Shown here piece after piece: positions 2,333-58,331 of a DNA stretch of 64,000 bases. This DNA is from an uncultured Opitutia bacterium (lineage in GTDB: Bacteria > Verrucomicrobiota > Verrucomicrobiia > Opitutales > Opitutaceae): the NCBI GenBank assembly GCA_903859715.1, contig CAIONS010000009.1, forward strand, positions 124,001 to 188,000, read 5' to 3'. Below the pieces are notes generated by a model that had not been told where the DNA came from, made no database searches, and saw only the letters and a list, made by a program, of their open reading frames with translations. How positions within the stretch are numbered: the first letter of the stretch is position 1; each line of letters starts with the position of its first letter. The position numbers and the translations under genes are program-made.

Positions 2333-2520
2333 TTAACCACGAAGGGCACGAAGCCCACGAAGATCGATCCGTCCAATCCATCCTTTACCGCAAAGCTCGC
2401 GAAGGCCGCGAAGACGGAAATTGAAATGCTGGTTTGGAACTTTGCGTTCTTCGCGAGCTTTGCGGTAAAACTCAGATGCCTTGGCTTGGCCTTCGTGGGC
2501 TTTGTGCCCTTCGTGGTTAA
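2333..2520. repeat. Nested inverted repeat with period-9 arms
   Basis: Outer arms 2333-2362 and 2491-2520 are inverted copies (29 of 30 match) made of 9-mers of the type CCACGAAGG / GCACGAAGC / CCACGAAG. Inside them lies a second inverted pair (about 2384-2412 and 2441-2468) with CGCAAAG/CGCGAAG 9-mers. It fills the space between two convergent genes and could fold into a long hairpin in RNA from either strand. Confidence 0.85.
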
Positions 2521-2578: not shown

Positions 2579-5023
2579 CTATTCGTCGCGGAGCGCCACC
2601 AGAGGATCGATCGCCGCTGCGCGCCGCGCCGGCAGATAACTGGCGAGCAGTGCGACGATCAACAGCACTGCGGAGACTGCGACATAGACAATCGGGTCCG
2701 TCGGTTTCACTCCGAACAGCAGGGTCGTGATAGAGCGGCTGAGCAGTGCGGCCCCGATCAGGCCAGTCACGATGCCCACGCCCGCCTTCCACAAGCCCTG
2801 CCGCAGGATCAGGCCGATGATCTGTTCCCGCGACGCCCCGATCGCCCCGCGCACGCCGATTTCCCGGGTACGCTGCGACACGTCATAGGCCAGCACGCCG
2901 TAGATGCCCAACGCGGAGAGGAACAGCGCCAGTCCGGCGAAGGCTGCGAGCAATAGCATGACGGCGCGACGACTGTCGAACGACGAGCTTACCACGGCCG
3001 TCAGCGGTCCCGTATCGAAAAGAAACACCGTTGGGTCGATCGCACGGACCTTCGCCCGCAAGGCGTTGACCACATCCGCCGGAGGCCGGTCGCCGCGCAA
3101 AAACAGTGTCATGCCGCCCGGTCGCGCCTGCGGGGGCAGAAGCTGGTAAATGAAGGGATTGCCGCTCTTTTCCTCCACGCCATTGTGGGGGACATCCTTG
3201 ACCACGCCGATGATCACCGGCCAGTCCGAGTCCTTCTCGGGCCGGTTACCGAAGGTGAAGCGGCCTCCGACGGCCGAGCGGTTGGGGAAGAATTTTTTCG
3301 CGAAGCTCTGGTCGACGACGAAGAGCTTCTGGTTCGGTGCGAGGTCGCGTTCCTCGTAAAAGCGTCCGTCGACCAGGGTCAGCCCCATGGTCTGGGCATA
3401 GCCGGGCGTGACCACGATGCGAAACGCCGACGGCTGGGGCGAACCGGCGGGCAGCGTGTCCTGCTCGAGGGTAAAGGCGTTGATGGGCAGTCCGCCTTGG
3501 AAGGGCGTGGCGGAGGCCAGGGCCACGGACGTGACGCCGGGGATTTCCCGGAGGGACAGCAGCAATCGATCTCGGAATTTGTTGGCCGCCACGTCGCTCG
3601 CGCGGTGCGCGGCCGGGATTGCGATCCGTCCAGTCACGACTCCCTGCGGATTGAAGCCGGGGTCGACTTTCAGGGCGTTGGCGAAGCTGTGGATCAGCAA
3701 CCCGGCGCCGGTGAGCAGCACCAGTGCGACGGCGATCTGGGTCACGACCAGGATGCTGCTCAGGGCCCGCACGCCGCGCCCCGACGAGGCGCCGCGGGAA
3801 CTGCGTTGGATTACCTCGGCCAGGTTCGTCCGCAGGATGTGGATCACCGGCACCAAGCCGATCAGCAACCCGACCAGCAGGGTCAGCCCTGCGGCAAACC
3901 CGAGCACGCGGAGATCGAGCGAGGCCGGCAGGGCCGACGGCAGCATCTTGGCCAGGTAGAAATTGGTCACGCGCAAGGCACTCCAGGCCAGCCCGAGCCC
4001 GAGCAGCGCGCCGACGCCCGTCAGGAGGAGGCTTTCGAGCACAAGCTGCCGGGCGATGGTGGCGCGCCCCGCGCCCAGCGCGGAGCGGATCGCCAGTTCA
4101 GACTGGCGGGCATTGGAGCGCACGAGGAGCAGGTTGGCCACGTTCACGCAGCCGATCAGCAGCACAAACAGGACGCCGGCCTGCAGCAGCAGCATCGTGG
4201 CGCGCACCGGTTGCACGCGCTGTTCCTGCACGCCCCCGACATTCATCGTCATGCCCGAGCGATCGACAAAGGCCTTGAACCCGGCGGGCGCCGCCTCGAC
4301 GTAGTGCCGTTCAAGGGTCTTGGCCTCGGCATCGGCCTGGCCGATCGTGGCGCCCGGCTTGAGGCGCCCGAAAAGCTGGATGCCCACCCCGTAGCGGCCC
4401 TGCGGGTTCTCCGCCGCCGGCGGCCAGGAAAGAGGCGTGACAAACTTTGCCCGCGCATCCCACGCCTCGAACGCCCGCGGCGCCACGCCGATCACCTTGT
4501 ATTTTCCACCGTCGATGCGAATTTCCTTCCCGACGATGGCGGGATCCTCGGAAAACTGGGACTGCCAGAATGACTGGGTAAGGACGACGACCTTGTCCGC
4601 GCCCGGCCGGTCCTGCTCCTTGGTAAAAAAGGATCCGAGCAGCGGCTGGATCCGCAGAACCTGGAAAATTTCCGCCGTCATGCTGGCCGTCGTGAGGCGG
4701 ATGGCGGCCTCGTCCTCGCCGAACATCTGCTGGGAGAGCGTCCAAAGGCCGATCGTTTCGTAGGAGGCCGCGTTTTTCGAGTAGTCGAGGTAGATCGGGA
4801 CGTTGGCCGGCATCTTGTCCAGGCCCGCCTTGGCCGCCGACGAGTAGAGTTCGACGATGCGGTCCGGCTCGCTGAAGGGGAGCGGCTTCAGCATCAGCGA
4901 GTAGACGGTGGAGAAAATCGCGGTCGTGGCACCGATGCACAGGGCCAGCGTGATCAGGGTCGTGGCGGTGATGCCCTTGCTTTTCCACAGGAGCCGGAAG
5001 GCGTGGCGGACGTCGCCGCCCAT
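2579..5023 (-). CDS. ADOP-type (MacB-like) ABC transporter permease with two FtsX domains
   Basis: 814-residue membrane permease of the duplicated-permease kind (ADOP, related to MacB). The start at 5023 gives MGGDVRHAFRLLWKSKG, the usual beginning; the frame stays open to 5209, but that extension runs into an intergenic repeat and is unlikely to be translated. Layout: TM helix near residues 20-40, periplasmic MacB-type domain to about 245, three-helix FtsX domain, a second periplasmic domain, and a C-terminal FtsX domain with the typical YDVSQRTREIGVRGAIGA. These permeases pair with a MacB-type ATPase for efflux or envelope work; none is adjacent. Convergent with the ceramidase-like gene. 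Start uncertain because no clear ribosome-binding site is seen. Confidence 0.88.
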   Translation of the reverse strand: MGGDVRHAFRLLWKSKGITATTLITLALCIGATTAIFSTVYSLMLKPLPFSEPDRIVELYSSAAKAGLDKMPANVPIYLDYSKNAASYETIGLWTLSQQMFGEDEAAIRLTTASMTAEIFQVLRIQPLLGSFFTKEQDRPGADKVVVLTQSFWQSQFSEDPAIVGKEIRIDGGKYKVIGVAPRAFEAWDARAKFVTPLSWPPAAENPQGRYGVGIQLFGRLKPGATIGQADAEAKTLERHYVEAAPAGFKAFVDRSGMTMNVGGVQEQRVQPVRATMLLLQAGVLFVLLIGCVNVANLLLVRSNARQSELAIRSALGAGRATIARQLVLESLLLTGVGALLGLGLAWSALRVTNFYLAKMLPSALPASLDLRVLGFAAGLTLLVGLLIGLVPVIHILRTNLAEVIQRSSRGASSGRGVRALSSILVVTQIAVALVLLTGAGLLIHSFANALKVDPGFNPQGVVTGRIAIPAAHRASDVAANKFRDRLLLSLREIPGVTSVALASATPFQGGLPINAFTLEQDTLPAGSPQPSAFRIVVTPGYAQTMGLTLVDGRFYEERDLAPNQKLFVVDQSFAKKFFPNRSAVGGRFTFGNRPEKDSDWPVIIGVVKDVPHNGVEEKSGNPFIYQLLPPQARPGGMTLFLRGDRPPADVVNALRAKVRAIDPTVFLFDTGPLTAVVSSSFDSRRAVMLLLAAFAGLALFLSALGIYGVLAYDVSQRTREIGVRGAIGASREQIIGLILRQGLWKAGVGIVTGLIGAALLSRSITTLLFGVKPTDPIVYVAVSAVLLIVALLASYLPARRAAAIDPLVALRDE

Positions 5024-5364
5024 GCCGGAGAAGAGTTGGCTGAGCCAGAAGGCGCGAGGGGATTCAGGGTTCACGGAGGGGATGGGTTGCGCGGGACGCT
5101 GACCCGCTGATCCGAACAGGAGATGTGCCCCGGAGACAACGGTGAAGACGCGCTGGCGGACTGAGCCTGGTTTTTTGTTAAACCACGAAGGGCACGAACA
5201 CCAAGCCATGGCAGGTCGATCTGGATTGCGAAGCTTGGGCTTGGCGTACTTCGCGACCTTTGCGGTTCAACGACCTTTACCCTGAGTTTTTACCGCCAAC
5301 AGCGCGAAGTCCGAGGCCGGGATACCTTCGTGTGCTTCGTGCCCTTCGTGGTTAAAATCAGTCT
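5024..5364. repeat. Gene-free spacer with inverted period-9 repeat arms
   Basis: No convincing gene. The spacer holds an inverted pair of the CCACGAAGGGCACGAA family (left arm about 5177-5204, right arm about 5326-5356). Between the arms are degenerate CGCGAAG/TTTGCGG pieces. Same repeat family as at 2333-2520. Confidence 0.7.
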
Positions 5365-10300: not shown

Positions 10301-10390
10301 GGAGAGGTGGCAGAGTGGTCTAATGCGCGTGCTTGGAAAGCACGTGTAGCCGCAAGGTTACCGGGGGTTCGAATCCCTCCCTCTCCGCCA
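10301..10390 (+). tRNA. tRNA-Ser (anticodon GGA), CCA encoded
   Basis: 90-nt class II tRNA. Acceptor stem GGAGAGG pairs with CCTCTCC, followed by discriminator G and an encoded CCA. The anticodon stem-loop CGTGC-TTGGAAA-GCACG gives GGA, reading UCC/UCU. A long variable arm and the GGTTCGAATCC T-loop are present. It ends 128 bp before nuoB; the 150 bp to its left hold no gene. Confidence 0.97.
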
Positions 10391-27594: not shown

Positions 27595-27879
27595 TTACTT
27601 CGCTTTCCGGACGCGCTCTTTCTCCTCGTCGCGTTCTTCCTCCAGCCGGACCCGTTCGCTGACGAGCTGCTGCTGCACCTTTTTGACCTCATCGGCCTTT
27701 TGCTCGGAGTAGGCCTCGTCGAGCTGCTTCTTCAGGAAAATTTCCCGCTCGGCGATCTTGCCCTGGTAGACGCGGTCAATTTCGGCCAGCCGGCCCTTTT
27801 GCTCGGCGGTGAGAGGACGGCCCGCAGTGGGATCGGACTTGGCAAGACGTTCCATCGCGAGTTCATAGGCGCTTTTCAT
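27595..27879 (-). CDS. Small charged coiled-coil protein, unknown
   Basis: 94 residues from ATG 27879 (MKSAYELAMERLAKSDP). It is almost wholly helical and highly charged, with KKQLDEAY, VKKVQQQLVSERVRLEEE and a Lys/Arg-rich end, so a coiled coil is likely. I do not recognise a function. The upstream frame extends into a repeat and was not used. Coding is supported by the regular helical composition and a plausible N-terminus. Confidence 0.65.
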   Translation of the reverse strand: MKSAYELAMERLAKSDPTAGRPLTAEQKGRLAEIDRVYQGKIAEREIFLKKQLDEAYSEQKADEVKKVQQQLVSERVRLEEERDEEKERVRKAK

Positions 27880-27935
27880 GGGATGAAGGTAACGACGCCC
27901 CCGGCGGAATCCACAGAAGAATTTTTCCAGGCATT

Positions 27936-28219
27936 TTCCAGGAGGTAACGGAGAGGAGGTTTGATCAGGATTCCTGCGGGCCTTTTCACACGAAGATCGC
28001 AAAGGCCGCGAAGTTGAGTTGGCCGCAAAAAAGCACAAGGGCGCGGAAGCTGCGAACGAGTCGCCATTGCGCCTATAGGCGCGCGGGAGATTCGAGTCGG
28101 AGTCTAATGGTCCTTGTGCCTCTTTGCGGCCAAACGGCTTGATCCGAATCCTTCGCGGCCTTTGCGATCTTGGTGTAAAATCAGATCTCTCTGTTTCCTC
28201 GGTTACCTCCTGTAAAAAT
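27936..28219. repeat. Triple-nested inverted repeat
   Basis: Three inverted pairs are nested. The outer pair is CAGGAGGTAAC-type (about 27936-27959 and 28198-28219). The middle pair is period-9 arms 27988-28013 and 28151-28176 (25 of 26 match). The innermost is the 118-bp hairpin 28018-28135. This is the whole gap between the coiled-coil gene and comEC; no gene is seen in it. Confidence 0.8.
28018..28135 (+). repeat. 118-bp hairpin element, copy A
   Basis: Terminal inverted repeats of about 23 nt (GTTGGCCGCAAA start, TTTGCGGCCAAAC end). The interior has the palindrome GCGCCTATAGGCGC at 28069-28082 followed by GCGGGAGATT. Two further copies lie at 39222-39338 and 43357-43474. Confidence 0.85.
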
Positions 28220-28236: not shown

Positions 28237-29877
28237 CTACCCATAGCTCACGCCGAAGATCAGCGTGAGAGCGACCACGGCGAACGGCGGCCAGAATCCC
28301 CGGCTCCAGCCGCGCCAGTCCTTCGCGTAGCCGATGAACATGACGGTGAGCAGCGCGGCCAGTGCCGTCCCTCCGACCCACGGTGCGCGGAACGTCGCGG
28401 CAAACCACATTCCGGGCAATTGCAAGTTGCCGCGCACGCCGTGATCGACCGCCCACAACACCAATACGGCGGCATGGTTGGCCAGCACCGTGCCAGCGGT
28501 GAAGCCGGCGAGTCCGCTGAGCAGTGACACGAGCCCCAGCAGAATCACCAGCGTCGAGGCGGGGATGACCCAGAGATTGGCCAGCAGAGCGCCGGGCGTG
28601 AAGAGATTGAAAAACTGCACGCCGGTCACGGCGCCGACCAGCGCCGAGACCAAGCCGATCCCCAAGGACGCGATCACGGTCCGCCACAGGGCGTCGCGCC
28701 CGTGATGATGCCAGGCCCACGAGATGGTTGGCAGGTCGCGAAAGAGCACTCCGGCCGCCTGCCACCGGTCCGTCAGCGGCAGTCCGAGCACCAGCAGCGC
28801 AGCGACGATGCCATAGCTCATCTGAAAACTGGCGCTGAACAGATCCAGCGGAGTGACCAGCAGCACGAGCAGCGCCGAGGCTGTAAGCGCGGAGAGCGGA
28901 TTGCGCGGCACCCGCAGCACGAATGAAAGCTGCACGAACGCCACCATCACAAACGCCCGCACGGCCGACGGCGCGGCGCCCGTGATATCCACGTAGAGCC
29001 ACAATGCGACCAGCCCGATGAGCAGCACCACGATCTTGGGGAGCCGCAGCAGCGATAAGAGTGCCGTCAACCCGGCCGCGATCACCGCGATGTGCAGGCC
29101 GCTGATGGAGAAGACATGCATGGTCCCGCTTTGGCGGAAGAGAGTGTTCTGTTCATCGCTCAGCTCATGCTGCTGGCCGAGCAGCATAGCGCGCAACACG
29201 CCGACCAATCCCGGCCGCTTGGCCTCCACGCCCGCGCCCAGCAGGGCGGAAAACCGGGCCAGGGTTCGTGCGCAAAACCGCGAGTAGGCTGGCGCGGGCT
29301 GCACCTCCGCCAGCGTTCGCCCGCGCGTGAGCCGGAAATTGATGCCGGCGCTGGCGAGATAGCCGTCAAACGTGTTCGCCGGCGGATCGCGCGGCAGCGT
29401 CACCAACACGCCGATGGCCTTGATGATCGCTCCCCGGAGCGGCGGCGGCTCTCCCTTGCGCAGCATGAGCGAGAAATACAGCCGCTGGTCGCGCAGCTCC
29501 TGCACGGGCGCATCGGCGTGAACGACTGTAGCCAGCCCCGAAGACTTGCGGGCATCCGCCTGGGCAAACACCCGGTCGATCCGCAGCGTGAGCCGCGCCT
29601 CGCGCGGCGGCAAGGTGTCCCACGCCGTCACTCGCGGCCGGTGCAGCGCATAGCTGGCGGCACCGGCGAGGACCATCGCCACGCCCAAGGCTGCAACCCA
29701 GCACCCGCGCCACCCACGCCAAGCCGCGATAATCCCGAACGCGCTGGCGAGCCCGGCACCGGCGAGCAGCCACGGCACCGGGAAAAAGTCGCCCGCTTTG
29801 CCCGCGGCGAGTCCGGCCATGAACGGCAGAACCAGCCACAACAACGGCGCGCGGTGTCCGAGACTGCGGCTGATCAT
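28237..29877 (-). CDS. comEC: ComEC/Rec2-type membrane protein lacking the metallo-beta-lactamase domain
   Basis: 546-residue polytopic protein. The N-terminal DUF4131 region is followed by the Competence domain with the hallmark FSISGLHIAVIAAGL near residue 260, then many membrane helices. Full-length ComEC, the inner-membrane channel for DNA uptake, is usually 700-800 residues with a C-terminal metallo-beta-lactamase domain; this protein ends right after the last helices (LIFGVSYG). Downstream there is only repeat DNA. Either a natural short form or a 3' truncation by repeat insertion. Start MISRSLGHRAPLL at 29877. Confidence 0.85.
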   Translation of the reverse strand: MISRSLGHRAPLLWLVLPFMAGLAAGKAGDFFPVPWLLAGAGLASAFGIIAAWRGWRGCWVAALGVAMVLAGAASYALHRPRVTAWDTLPPREARLTLRIDRVFAQADARKSSGLATVVHADAPVQELRDQRLYFSLMLRKGEPPPLRGAIIKAIGVLVTLPRDPPANTFDGYLASAGINFRLTRGRTLAEVQPAPAYSRFCARTLARFSALLGAGVEAKRPGLVGVLRAMLLGQQHELSDEQNTLFRQSGTMHVFSISGLHIAVIAAGLTALLSLLRLPKIVVLLIGLVALWLYVDITGAAPSAVRAFVMVAFVQLSFVLRVPRNPLSALTASALLVLLVTPLDLFSASFQMSYGIVAALLVLGLPLTDRWQAAGVLFRDLPTISWAWHHHGRDALWRTVIASLGIGLVSALVGAVTGVQFFNLFTPGALLANLWVIPASTLVILLGLVSLLSGLAGFTAGTVLANHAAVLVLWAVDHGVRGNLQLPGMWFAATFRAPWVGGTALAALLTVMFIGYAKDWRGWSRGFWPPFAVVALTLIFGVSYG

Positions 29878-33011: not shown

Positions 33012-33372
33012 CGGAAGCTCGAAGGTTGAAGTTCGAAATCCGAAGGTGAAGACGGAGCTCGAAACCCGAAGTTCGAAATCCGAAACAAGGGGCGCCTTTA
33101 ACCTGAGTGTCATTCTGAGCGCAGCGAAGAATCCAGAATGATCCCGCAGAAAGCTTCGACGCCATCCAACTGGATCCTTCGCTGTGCCCAGGATGACAAG
33201 CGAGGGAGTTTTGCCTGATGAAATCTAAAATTCCCGGCGTTTTCCCTGGCTGAAATTTCCTTCGGATTTTGAGCTTCGTGCTTCGGATTTCGGCCTTCGT
33301 GCTTTTGTCCCTCCTTCGTTTTAAGTTGCGGACGGTTTTTTTCCCGCTTCCTCTGTCCGACTTCTTTCTCAT
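33012..33372. repeat. Nested heptamer and TGTCATTCTGAGCG repeats; no gene
   Basis: Heptamer arrays (CTCGAAG, GTTGAAG, TTCGAAA, TCCGAAG and a second set) occupy about 33026-33087. Inverted heptamers (TTCGGAT, TTTGAGC, TTCGTGC and others) lie at about 33263-33304. Between them is an inverted pair TGTCATTCTGAGCGCAGCGA (from 33108) and TTCGCTGTGCCCAGGATGACA (ending 33199), a repeat type widespread in bacterial genomes. No gene seen. Confidence 0.75.
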
Positions 33373-35879: not shown

Positions 35880-36236
35880 ATGTCCTTCCGACGAATTACC
35901 ACCGAAGAAACAAGTGCCGCGCATTCTGCGTACATTGAAGTTTATGTATGGCTCAACGCGAAGGGCATCAGACAATGGCTGCGCCCGCTTTCTAAAGAGA
36001 CATTTGTCGAGCGTCAGCGCGATGGACAGTTGTTTGGCTTTTACGTCGATATGGCGCGAAAAGTAATAATTTTTGTTTTGCTGCTTTTTCTTGGCACAGC
36101 AGGGGCTTTTTTGGCTTCTTGGATTGTTGGATTGATTTGGCCTAGAGCTAGATTGCCGGTTTTCGTCCTCATTGCTTTGTGGTGGTGTTGGACTGGATGG
36201 AGATACGCCAAGGCCCGCGACAGAGGGCAGTTCTGA
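35880..36236 (+). CDS. Low-GC chimeric protein: GNAT-like N-terminus plus membrane segment
   Basis: 118 residues from ATG 35880; GTG 35874 is possible. The first ~55 residues (VWLNAKGIRQWLRPLSKETF, then ERQRDGQLFGFYVD) resemble the start of certain GNAT acetyltransferases. The acetyl-CoA-binding part is missing; instead the chain continues into two hydrophobic helices (VIIFVLLLFL... and VFVLIALWWCW) and a basic tail. Base composition is clearly more AT-rich than the neighbours. It may be a truncated acetyltransferase joined to foreign sequence, or a real small membrane protein. Function unknown; whether it is expressed is uncertain. Confidence 0.5.
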   Translation: MSFRRITTEETSAAHSAYIEVYVWLNAKGIRQWLRPLSKETFVERQRDGQLFGFYVDMARKVIIFVLLLFLGTAGAFLASWIVGLIWPRARLPVFVLIALWWCWTGWRYAKARDRGQF

Positions 36237-39008: not shown

Positions 39009-39340
39009 GACGGGTGGGACTGTCGCGACTATACCGAACGCGTCAAGAGGCGCAGGCAAAATGATCCATTGTAACCACGGATTTCACGGATGGCACTGAT
39101 GAGGAATCCGAAACCTCGATCCTTCTCACAGGAGGTAACGGAGAAAACGGAGAATGAGATTTTCTTCACCATGCCTAGCTCAGTTCTCTCCGTTGCCTCT
39201 TGTAGTAACAGACATCGGAGGGTTGGCCACAAAGAGGCACAAGGTGACAGGGGTTTCGGCTCTACTCTCCCGCGCGCCTATAGGCTCAATGGAGGCTCTT
39301 TCGCAGCCCCAAGGCCGTTGCGCCTTTTTGTGGCCAATCC
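39009..39340. other. Gene-free repeat region with hairpin copy B
   Basis: No gene seen. It contains a period-9 CCACGGATT array (about 39074-39100), an inverted pair of CAGGAGGTAACGGAG type (about 39129-39160 and 39187-39212), and then the 118-bp-class hairpin. Confidence 0.75.
39222..39338 (-). repeat. 118-bp hairpin element, copy B (inverted)
   Basis: 117 bp. Terminal inverted repeats GTTGGCCACAAAGAGGC and GCCTTTTTGTGGCCAAT; core GCGCCTATAGGCTC at 39274-39287. The internal sequence runs opposite to copies A and C. It abuts the stop of the CusF-fusion gene. Confidence 0.85.
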
Positions 39341-40807
39341 TCACTTTCCCCCGAGCCATCTTACGCCGAAGATCCACCAGGGTTTGCCGCGGTGCTCGAT
39401 GCGGGCGAGCAGCTCGCGGCCTGGTGTCGCAGCGGCCAGCACATCCGGGTCGGCGTGGAGTTCCAGGGTCATGGCGCGCATGACGCCCGGGATTTCATCC
39501 TGTTGCACGATGATCGAGGCCCGCTCCTTCGATACGCTTACGATCCGACCCTTCATGGGAAAACCGCGCACGGCCTGGGCATCATCCTCGTCGCAGGGCA
39601 CGCAGGGCTTGCGGCCGGCCAGGGTGGAGAGATCGGCCAGGGTGATCAGCAATGTGTGCAGGGCAGTGGGCTCATCGCTGTTGAATGCCACGGCGAGCCG
39701 TGCCGGGGTGGCGTCATAGTCTTTCACCAAGGTAATCCGCGGGAAGCCGGTGAGGTGCGCCGGGTTCAGCGGCGCCAGCCGAACAGCCTGGCCCAATTCA
39801 AAACCGGGAGTGATGCGACGCAGCCAGAGGCCGGGCTGATCCCCGGCGTTTTCAAGCCAGGTCACCAGGATCGAGCCGTTGGCCAGCATCACGGTGTCCA
39901 CGTGGCCGAGAGGATGGCCGCGGTCGAGGCGCAGTGGCTGGAGAAAACGTGCCCCGGCGTCGGGAGTGACCGAGGCCAGCACGCGCGGCTCGCGATCGGC
40001 GGCGGTGAACCACACGGTGGCGGCGCGACCGCCGCGGGCCGCGAGTTGCGGGCCGTTGACCGGACAGCCGGCAATGCGCCAGTCGTCGGAGCTGAGTACC
40101 CGGCCATCGGACCAGTGGTTGTCCTGGAATCGCGCCACCTGGATGTCGCGCACCTCGTCGCGGGTCCGGCCACGGTAGGCGAGTAGGGCGCTGCCGTCGG
40201 CAAATTGGGTGAGGGTCGTCCGGCAGCAGTCACACACGGAGGAATCGACGAGCCAGTCGGGCCCATCGCTGCCGATGATGCGGGAGTAGAGTTGCTGGAC
40301 GCCATGGTCGTCACGTTTTCCGCGGCCATCGAGCCACGCGGCGAGCACGCGGCCATCGGTGAGCGTTTCGAGCGAAACAAATTCCACGGAGGTGCTCTCA
40401 TGTGTCAGCAGGACCGGCGCACTCCAAGTCTGGCCACGATCTGTCGACTGGCTGGTGAAGGCGACCGATCCGGCCGGCTGCGGCGGAGCGGAGGCCTTGG
40501 CCAGCCACACGGCGGTGAGTCTTCCGTCGGGCCCGACAGTGAGCGATGGGGTGTCGGCATCGCTCACTAGCCAGTCCCGACCCTGCGCAATGGTACGCGG
40601 CATATTCCAAGCGGCCGCGGCCGAGTCCAAAGTGGCGCAACGCAGGGCGGTGGTGCCGTCGGCCGCGGTGACCAGGGCGGGACTTGTCGCCCGCCGCGCC
40701 GTGGGCGCCGGGACCTCGACCGATTTGACCCGCAGCGGCGGCAGGTCGTCCGCGGCGTGCAGCGCGCCGCCGAGCAGGAGGCAGAGAATGAAAGTTAGGC
40801 GAGACAC
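39341..40807 (-). CDS. Sialidase-fold (BNR-like) exported protein fused to CusF-like copper-binding domain
   Basis: 488 residues with signal peptide (MSRLTFILCLLLGGALHAA). Residues ~40-400 form a six-bladed-propeller type with Asp-box-like S-x-D-x-G-x-T-W (STDRGQTW) and a CDCCRT motif near residue 195. The C-terminal ~70 residues (KGRIVSVSKERASI ... IPGVMRAMTLEL) match the CusF/copper-chaperone OB-fold, including the M-R-A-M-T position that in CusF carries metal-binding residues. A fusion of propeller and copper-binding domains, probably periplasmic. First gene of a minus-strand group leading to the TonB receptor. The propeller is probably not a true sialidase. Confidence 0.78.
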   Translation of the reverse strand: MSRLTFILCLLLGGALHAADDLPPLRVKSVEVPAPTARRATSPALVTAADGTTALRCATLDSAAAAWNMPRTIAQGRDWLVSDADTPSLTVGPDGRLTAVWLAKASAPPQPAGSVAFTSQSTDRGQTWSAPVLLTHESTSVEFVSLETLTDGRVLAAWLDGRGKRDDHGVQQLYSRIIGSDGPDWLVDSSVCDCCRTTLTQFADGSALLAYRGRTRDEVRDIQVARFQDNHWSDGRVLSSDDWRIAGCPVNGPQLAARGGRAATVWFTAADREPRVLASVTPDAGARFLQPLRLDRGHPLGHVDTVMLANGSILVTWLENAGDQPGLWLRRITPGFELGQAVRLAPLNPAHLTGFPRITLVKDYDATPARLAVAFNSDEPTALHTLLITLADLSTLAGRKPCVPCDEDDAQAVRGFPMKGRIVSVSKERASIIVQQDEIPGVMRAMTLELHADPDVLAAATPGRELLARIEHRGKPWWIFGVRWLGGK

Positions 40808-46244: not shown

Positions 46245-46384
46245 AAGGTGGAGCGCGTTGCCTCAAACGCGCGGGATTTTATTGGAGATGCGGCGCCCTC
46301 GCCGCGTCTTGCGTCCGGCCGCGGCGGGGGCGCCGCGGCTCCAGCTCGCAGGCCAACGCGTTGGGGGCAACGCGTTCCACCTCC
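46245..46384. repeat. Nested REP/BIME-like element between binding protein and permease genes
   Basis: Outer arms AAGGTGG / CCACCT with hairpins at 46252-46272 (imperfect) and 46355-46376 (AACGCGTTG-GGGG-CAACGCGTT). Inside lies another pair, TGGAG then GCGGCG-CCCT-CGCCGC, and GCCGCGGCG-GGGG-CGCCGCGGC then CTCCA (about 46283-46343). Fills the intergenic space within the operon. Confidence 0.85.
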
Positions 46385-58057: not shown

Positions 58058-58128
58058 GGAGAATGCCTAGGTAACCATGGGAGAGAGGGACGCAAATTTA
58101 TATTCCCGCCGAGCAGACGGGAAGGGCA

Positions 58129-58331
58129 CCACGAATGGACGGGAATTCACACGAATAGGAGACGGCCGATCCCCGGAATTTTAACCACGGATAACACGGA
58201 TTTCACGGATGGAACTCCGATCCTGAGTATCCTCCTTCGCCTTTATCCGGATCGAATCCGTGTAATCCGTGGTTAAAAATCAGGGAGGATTGAGGTTTTT
58301 CTATTCGTGTGAATTCGTGTCCATTCGTGGT
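58129..58331. repeat. Double-nested inverted repeat
   Basis: Outer pair 58129-58158 and 58301-58331 (ACACGAATAG / CTATTCGTGT type). Inner pair 58179-58208 and 58250-58278 (CCACGGATA, ACACGGATT, TCACGG against its inverse). It occupies the gap 58058-58355; no gene seen. Confidence 0.85.

Follow-up and report, generated by a model that had tools for sequence, protein, structure and literature searches.

Among the closest described relatives of the elements reported here are REPINs, the GTAG-tagged REP doublets with RAYT, which are short, inverted and extragenic, fall into many families and are thought to be mobile (PMC3116915, PMC3733652). Opitutus terrae is described as highly enriched in GTAG repeats, and Y1 genes flanked by TIRs have been published in the same work (PMC3733652). 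REP dimers have also been reported within longer palindromes, namely A. variabilis GTAG-15, H. neapolitanus CGTC-1 and T. roseum GTAG-23 (PMC3733652), and the insertion sequences IS1397, IS621 and ISPsy8 target REPs (PMC1525189). PMC8266576 describes the Y1 processing of single-stranded REP, and calls the spread of REP-like hairpins poorly understood.

We describe here a locus at which three hairpins are nested one inside the other. It lies within a stretch of 64,000 nt (the window) that corresponds to positions 124001-188000 of contig C9 in a 3.18-Mb genome (3,181,295 bp; a draft of 71 contigs, labeled G000). The same region is present in a close sister genome of the same genus, the metagenome assembly G011, which we use for comparison throughout.

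Structure of the focal stack and of other nests in the window

The focal stack occupies window positions 27934-28217 and is composed of three inverted pairs in the arrangement B[A[C]], with B outermost, A in the middle and C innermost. The stack and the genes on either side of it are as follows.

27595..27879, minus strand: flanking gene of 94 aa (codon-model call); the stack is upstream of its start
27934..27953, plus strand: left arm, TTTTCCAGGAGGTAACGGAG, of the outer hairpin, family B (CAGGAGGTAACGGAG; the CAGGAGGTAAC hairpin)
27984..28013, plus strand: left arm of the middle hairpin, family A (period-9 CACGAAGATCGCAAAGGCCGCGAAG)
28019..28133, no strand given: inner element C, 115 bp, of a dispersed family, with arms TTGGCCGCAAAAAAGCACAAGG at 28019-28040 and 28112-28133 and core GCGCCTATAGGCGC
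28151..28180, minus strand: right arm of the middle hairpin, family A
28198..28217, minus strand: right arm, TTTTACAGGAGGTAACCGAG, of the outer hairpin, family B
28237..29877, minus strand: flanking gene of 546 aa (codon-model call); its stop codon is 19 nt from the stack

The triple nesting that the first-pass annotation had placed near 27936-28219 is thereby confirmed, as is the presence of the innermost element, whose measured length is 115 bp rather than the 118 bp given there. Folded as single-stranded DNA, the segment 27920-28230 reaches -86.7 kcal/mol against a shuffle mean of -47.6 (z -8.3), with 0 of 100 shuffles as low; since shuffled spacers also give almost no inverted pairs, chance folding is ruled out. 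The family B sequence CAGGAGGTAACSGAG has 25 exact copies genome-wide, compared with 0 for the reversed-pattern control. By inspection, the focal A, B and C arms lack the GTAG/GGAG head plus palindrome of a REPIN arm, and no Rfam match at gathering score is present at the focal site. A tRNA gene at 10301-10387 is the sole Rfam match within the window. The 546-aa flanking gene has two relatives, with protein identities of 85% and 67%.

Similar nesting had been claimed at four further sites in the window. All four prove to be nests, the outer pair of the one at 33 kb being weak:

2333..2520, no strand given: ACCACGAAG hairpin around a ACCGCAAAG hairpin at 2384-2469; linkers of 21 and 21 nt
33060..33285, no strand given: weak CCGAAGTTCGAAATCCGAA outer hairpin (score 13) around a GTCATTCTGAGCG hairpin at 33108-33198
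46246..46382, no strand given: two REP-type hairpins, the inner at 46283-46343; linkers of 11 and 13 nt
58128..58331, no strand given: ACCACGAATGG hairpin around a ACCACGGAT hairpin at 58172-58285; linkers of 13 and 15 nt

Arms of both hairpins are found in G011 for the nests at 33060-33285 and 46246-46382. The window also holds a counter-example to nesting, a B hairpin (39128-39203) and a C hairpin (39218-39342) that stand side by side.

Placement of hairpins in gene spacers

We catalogued inverted pairs in the gene spacers of G000, using stretches of five contigs that together make up 1,149,315 bp (36% of 3,181,295) and contain 708 spacers, whose edges are approximate because the gene calls are our own codon-model calls. 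Any pair sharing arms with a better pair was dropped before counting. At a score of at least 13 the spacers yield 246 inverted pairs, and one dinucleotide shuffle of them yields 1; at a score of at least 15, prior to de-duplication, there are 191 pairs in spacers, 0 in shuffled spacers and approximately 3 in coding sequence after scaling for length. The 246 pairs have the terminal inverted repeats of a MITE, with a median arm of 25 nt. Labeling by motif places 196 of them under 25 labels, some of which are variants of one REP type, and leaves 50 unlabeled. The period-9 families include ACCACGGAT, ACCACGAAG, ACCACGAAT and CAGGAGGTAAC. The other families include TTGGCCACAAAAAGG, GTCATCCTGAGCGAAG and GTCATTCTGAGCG, together with REP-type families in which a GTAG or GGAG head is accompanied by a short palindrome, as at 46283-46343 and in TGTAGGGCGGGGTCGCTGACCCCGCC.

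Of 144 genomes sampled across the phylum, 36 contain the period-9 pattern ACCRCRRAKNNCRCRRAKNNCRCRRAK, with 103 matches in G000 and 0 everywhere for the reversed-pattern control; G135, G049 and G067 are among those rich in it. The 9-nt units of one copy tend, by eye and in the rows listed, toward the same variant. Two C-like elements lie side by side in a neighboring spacer at L091 ~775-1170 (in G004) and at L118 ~4960-5350, again by eye. Those outermost hairpins that lie next to a stop codon do so at a median distance of 13 nt (181 hairpins). Hairpins are present in 60 of 120 convergent spacers, 114 of 441 tandem spacers and 39 of 137 divergent spacers. Intrinsic terminators were considered and rejected: in the 448 flanks of 224 outermost hairpins there are 32 cases of TTTT as against 86 of AAAA, which has the opposite polarity.

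When two hairpins share a gap, one usually lies in mid-loop of the other, suggesting that new insertions are drawn to hairpin tips or tolerated there. At a score of at least 13 the G000 sample contains 22 pairs inside the loop of another, 9 side-by-side pairs (the B and C hairpins at 39128-39342 among them) and 0 crossing pairs, a single crossing pair appearing at score 12. Random insertion at score 13 is expected to give 9.2 nested pairs, with a maximum of 18 over 600 runs, together with 84.4 side-by-side pairs (minimum 44) and 8.7 arm hits. At a score of at least 15 the corresponding figures are 16 nested pairs against 5.1 expected (maximum 14) and 2 side-by-side pairs against 50.4 (minimum 28), and thresholds of 13, 14 and 15 all lead to the same conclusion. 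The inner hairpins are positioned near the loop center, with a mean asymmetry |l-r|/(l+r) of 0.27 (n=22, KS p 7e-4) that falls to 0.19 at the stricter threshold (n=16, KS p 5e-5). The 22 nests represent 19 distinct outer/inner family combinations, and the target is thus not one sequence; layers are also found in both orders, B in GGAT and GGAT in B. If the nests are collapsed to their 19 distinct label combinations and set against the 9 side-by-side pairs, the excess persists (p = 3e-8).

Our preferred reading of this pattern, for which we hold the chances to be even, is that the stacks are built of non-autonomous hairpin elements for which the loop center, by way of a single-stranded DNA loop, is the preferred landing and turnover point, some stacks then having been copied whole. 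An alternative would dispense with any preference and invoke only permissive sites and selection: insertion would be random, the site of an existing hairpin would be the sole harmless place in a spacer, and any insertion disrupting a stem or encroaching on a gene would be lost. The proximity of hairpins to stop codons and their greater frequency in convergent spacers are in line with this view, as is the observation that the focal spacer has been hit more than once in the genus, with a simple A-like hairpin in G001 and another period-9 hairpin in G005. We nevertheless consider it unlikely. A null model in which the second insertion is drawn from the stop-codon distance distribution takes this positional bias into account and still fails: its expectation is 0.12 for the loop, 0.37 for the arm and 0.51 for a position beside, hence a probability of 0.19 for the loop given loop or beside, compared with 19 nested and 7 beside observed (p = 4e-9). 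Arm hits are moreover expected to be three times as frequent as loop hits, and a search of low power for split arms returned 7 candidates, whose half-scores range from 7 to 12 and of which none resembles a family arm by eye. The stems themselves drift. In 53 hairpins shared with G011 there are 197 one-sided changes and 18 compensatory changes, the latter against 3.8 expected under independence; the breaks counted in G011 are inflated (152 versus 45) because the pairs were picked in G000. Strong selection on stem pairing is accordingly unsupported, hairpin integrity is apparently not under strong selection, and the purging of broken stems looks weak.

The preference for loops was also assessed in G011 (1,392,319 bp, 870 spacers, 236 pairs), which is not a fully independent replicate because of its common ancestry with G000. 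Here 9 pairs are nested where 6.4 are expected (at most 13 in 500 runs), a count that is not significant alone. Side-by-side pairs number 7 against 59.4 expected (minimum 32), centering is strong (mean asymmetry 0.10, n=9, p 2e-5), and 9 of 16 nested, tested against the 0.19 derived from G000, yields p = 0.001. The first-pass annotation had held that nesting is more frequent than random placement in intergenic DNA would produce. This is borne out in the examined part of G000, both by random insertion (22 versus 9.2) and by the position-aware comparison (19 versus 7 beside), whereas the nested count of G011 lies near chance.

Filled, empty and inverted loops in a sister genome

Between G000 and G011, loops have been gained or lost, replaced and inverted. 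The comparison covers 206 of the 708 spacers, spacers being dropped if their flanks were unmatched in G011 or if the G011 side exceeded 1500 nt, and an arm was counted as present in G011 on a lenient criterion, a local alignment reaching half of the full score of that arm. Fourteen direct G000 nests have an orthologous G011 spacer. Both hairpins are present in 8 of these, the outer only in 3 (the focal A[C], C56:270968 and C68:102422), the inner only in 0 and neither in 3. The empty and filled sites that a comparison of strains had been proposed to reveal are thus both found between these sister species.

Viewed from G011, one nest runs in the opposite direction: at C9:162984 GGAT[B] is intact in G011, and G000 retains B with one GGAT outer arm lost. 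In addition, at C9:153853 a B[GGAT] nest in G011 corresponds to one retained arm of each in G000. The G011 spacer orthologous to the side-by-side B and C hairpins of the window holds GGAT[B] in their place. Further differences, falling short of the detection threshold, were recognized by eye: at C62:58016 both species have the outer hairpin and the G000 loop has an extra palindrome with a REPIN, at C62:309 an extra palindrome is present in the G011 loop only, and at C62:38703 the inner REPIN differs between the species. Loop content also differs, by eye, at C68:169421.

Excluding loops shorter than 15 nt in either species or longer than 400 nt in G011, we compared 41 loops for which both arms were found in G011. 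Twenty-one are alike, 5 entries at 4 loci are inverted in place and 15 are otherwise changed. The inverted loops, which are the reverse complement in G011, are at C9:167356-167475, C68:101205-101297 and C68:230081-230199 in G000 coordinates, with the fourth locus at C62:35986-36128, where the inner hairpin at 36022 is inverted too. A separate case is the GTCATCCTGAGC hairpin at C62:12089-12243 in G000, which has an internal deletion in G011 (C66:78494-78673), apparently between short ATCC direct repeats as judged by eye. The polarity of the changes rests on two genomes, the metagenome assembly G011 and the draft G000, and for most of them we infer the direction.

At the focal site G011 has the B and A hairpins and lacks C, and the two sequences cease to align halfway through the A loop. 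The G011 loop, TCGGCCTTTGCGGCCGA, carries the ends of C, so that a target never filled and a scar left by the loss of C are equally likely. Another B[A[C]] stack is present at G011:C15:11106-11395, with B arms TTTACGGGAGGGAACGGAGG and TTTACAGGCGGAAACGGAGG (score 11) and with the A and C arms placed inside B both by alignment and by eye, and a B[A] without C is found at G000:C47:36560-36744. The similar junctions of these copies indicate that the focal stack moved, at least in part, as one block, and the existence of the second triple stack shows that the nests did not all arise by insertions of their own. Besides the hairpins of G001 and G005 mentioned above, these elements are absent from the focal spacer of G002, G004, G006, G008, G009 and G010, the genus comparison being made without an aligned spacer from G003 and G007. 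The proposal of the first-pass annotation that hairpin tips are targeted is partly supported: it agrees with the excess over random placement, the centering in loops and the filled and empty loops of the sister genome, and is weaker for the focal stack itself, given its copying in part as a block and its possible deletion scar in G011.

These observations allow a broader reading, which we advance tentatively while leaning somewhat against it: hairpin loops would be a general, sequence-independent landing site, an extruded hairpin drawing mobile hairpins of any family to its tip, with stacks growing inward and loops turning over and flipping. If true, this would be structure-guided insertion that requires neither a dedicated target sequence nor a target duplication, acting on a period-9 superfamily present in 36 of 144 genomes.

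Candidate mechanisms and relation to known systems

In the mechanism that we envisage for loop targeting, REPIN-like or MITE-like elements of more than 20 sequence families would settle just behind stop codons, and the loop center of an existing hairpin would become a favored landing and turnover point for hairpins of many families. Some of the resulting stacks, the focal one included, would then be copied as a single unit. The hairpin would extrude where DNA is single-stranded, chiefly at the replication fork, its loop then being both an exposed single strand and a place of synthesis stalling. Another hairpin could then be copied or joined into the loop, through replication template switching for most families, with a Y1 (HUH) REP transposase possibly inserting the GTAG-type REPs. 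In this scheme we infer the single-stranded intermediate and the enzyme.

Target-site duplications are absent across the 246 pairs: the mean longest word shared by a pair's own flanks is 3.50, against 3.51 for permuted flanks, and shared flank words of at least 5 nt number 33 against 31.4 permuted. A DDE-type MITE is rejected on this ground. A single suggestive 9-nt direct repeat was noted by eye at C62:44964-45322 and is not general.

Y1 enzymes are expected to leave no target-site duplication, so the same result accords with an alternative in which REP-associated Y1 transposases move hairpins as single strands into hairpin tips. The genus does carry candidates for such a role, Y1_Tnp, the transposase type searched for, having matches in 9 of 12 genomes, and several of the 19 Y1 loci are flanked by REP-like repeats. 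Among these, the Y1 genes of G005 (L183) and G011 (L181) are flanked by TGTAGGGCGGGGTCGCCGACCCCGCC and TGTGGGCGGGGTGCCCTCACCCCGC, respectively, and repeats like these are hairpins in our catalogue. Seven loci (L026 and L169-L174, L170 with a variant) instead have a GGGGTCAGCCCC-type terminal repeat unrelated to REPs, and four (L027, L176, L182 and L184) have neither kind. The Y1 gene of L026, at 1404-2462 (G000:C47 ~20390), has perfect 29-nt terminal inverted repeats, TGATGGGGTCAGCCCCTAACCTTTGTGGT, and these ends contain the published GGGGWSAS TIRYT motif. The focal families do not resemble the TGATGGGGTCAGCCCCTAACCTTTGTGGT ends, as a TIRYT sharing the terminal repeat of this Y1 gene would. 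We regard transposition by Y1 enzymes as quite unlikely to account for the stacks in general, given that neither the focal families (0 of 19 loci; B and C by pattern, A only via the inverted repeats listed) nor other period-9 families were seen in the Y1 flanks, which extend ~1.5 kb and are in some cases ended by contig edges, and that the more than 20 families of G000 stand against only 2 Y1 matches. The earlier suggestion of an HUH enzyme therefore holds only for REP-type families of the kind found beside Y1 genes in this genus; for the focal families no such link emerged in the flanks examined.

Taken together, the missing target-site duplications, the drifting stems and the absence of the focal families from the Y1 flanks examined lead us to favor loop exposure with template switching for most families, Y1 enzymes acting at most on REPs. 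Template switching, which had also been suggested at the outset, suits the in-place loop inversions as well as the missing duplications, but it is not separable on these grounds from a single-strand transposase. That each stack is one long imperfect palindrome, formed by inverted duplication and later eroded, is very improbable and largely refuted: linkers within nests show greater complementarity than permuted ones (6.25 versus 4.89; 20 linker pairs), so that some stacks may be eroded longer palindromes, and the whole focal region folds as one long hairpin, but the families of the layers also occur alone elsewhere, both layer orders exist, and inner layers are missing in the sister where the outer are kept, leaving filled and empty loops.

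With loop targeting as the preferred reading, an existing hairpin, through its loop, seems to set the landing place of the next, which provides a countable readout of loop, arm or flank. Should tip-targeting hold, the indicated substrate would be single-stranded DNA at the fork, and the occurrence in one genus of families with and without a Y1 partner would offer a natural comparison of transposase and template switching. Among the literature matches listed there is no work on these period-9 families and no cross-family, genome-wide test of loop targeting.

Several described systems share parts of this pattern. As with the REPINs of PMC3116915 and PMC3733652, arms with a GTAG/GGAG head and a palindrome occur in several families here, and repeats of this kind are found beside Y1 genes of the genus; unlike REPINs as described there, the focal A, B and C have neither a GTAG head nor a Y1 partner that we could find, and the arms of A and B are degenerate 9-nt tandem units. 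In Volvox organelle DNA palindromes often lie within palindromes, and a few larger composites recur at different locations (PMC2670323); the loops there, in contrast, are usually 3-5 nt, the DNA is organellar and the relevant passages contain no loop-position test. The insertion sequences of PMC1525189 also insert within a palindrome, which in the case of ISPsy8 is predicted to form a hairpin and is entered at its symmetry axis, but these are protein-coding elements, with a 3-bp target duplication in the case of ISPsy8, whereas the hairpins described here are short and non-coding and have no target-site duplication. Template switching at inverted repeats is reported to homogenize arms and invert loops (PMC8604942), the latter as seen here at 4 loci; that work concerns yeast coding DNA, and its abstract does not mention the insertion of a foreign hairpin.

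A further parallel is provided by the REPs inside palindromes already known from PMC3733652, of which the nests appear to be a variant, a hairpin doublet being placed inside another palindrome in both. As presented in that paper, each case involves one REP family and one target palindrome per species, with free targets not found in two of the three. The nests described here differ in comprising 19 outer/inner combinations, in being supported by a test of loop position, and in occurring as filled and empty loops between species.
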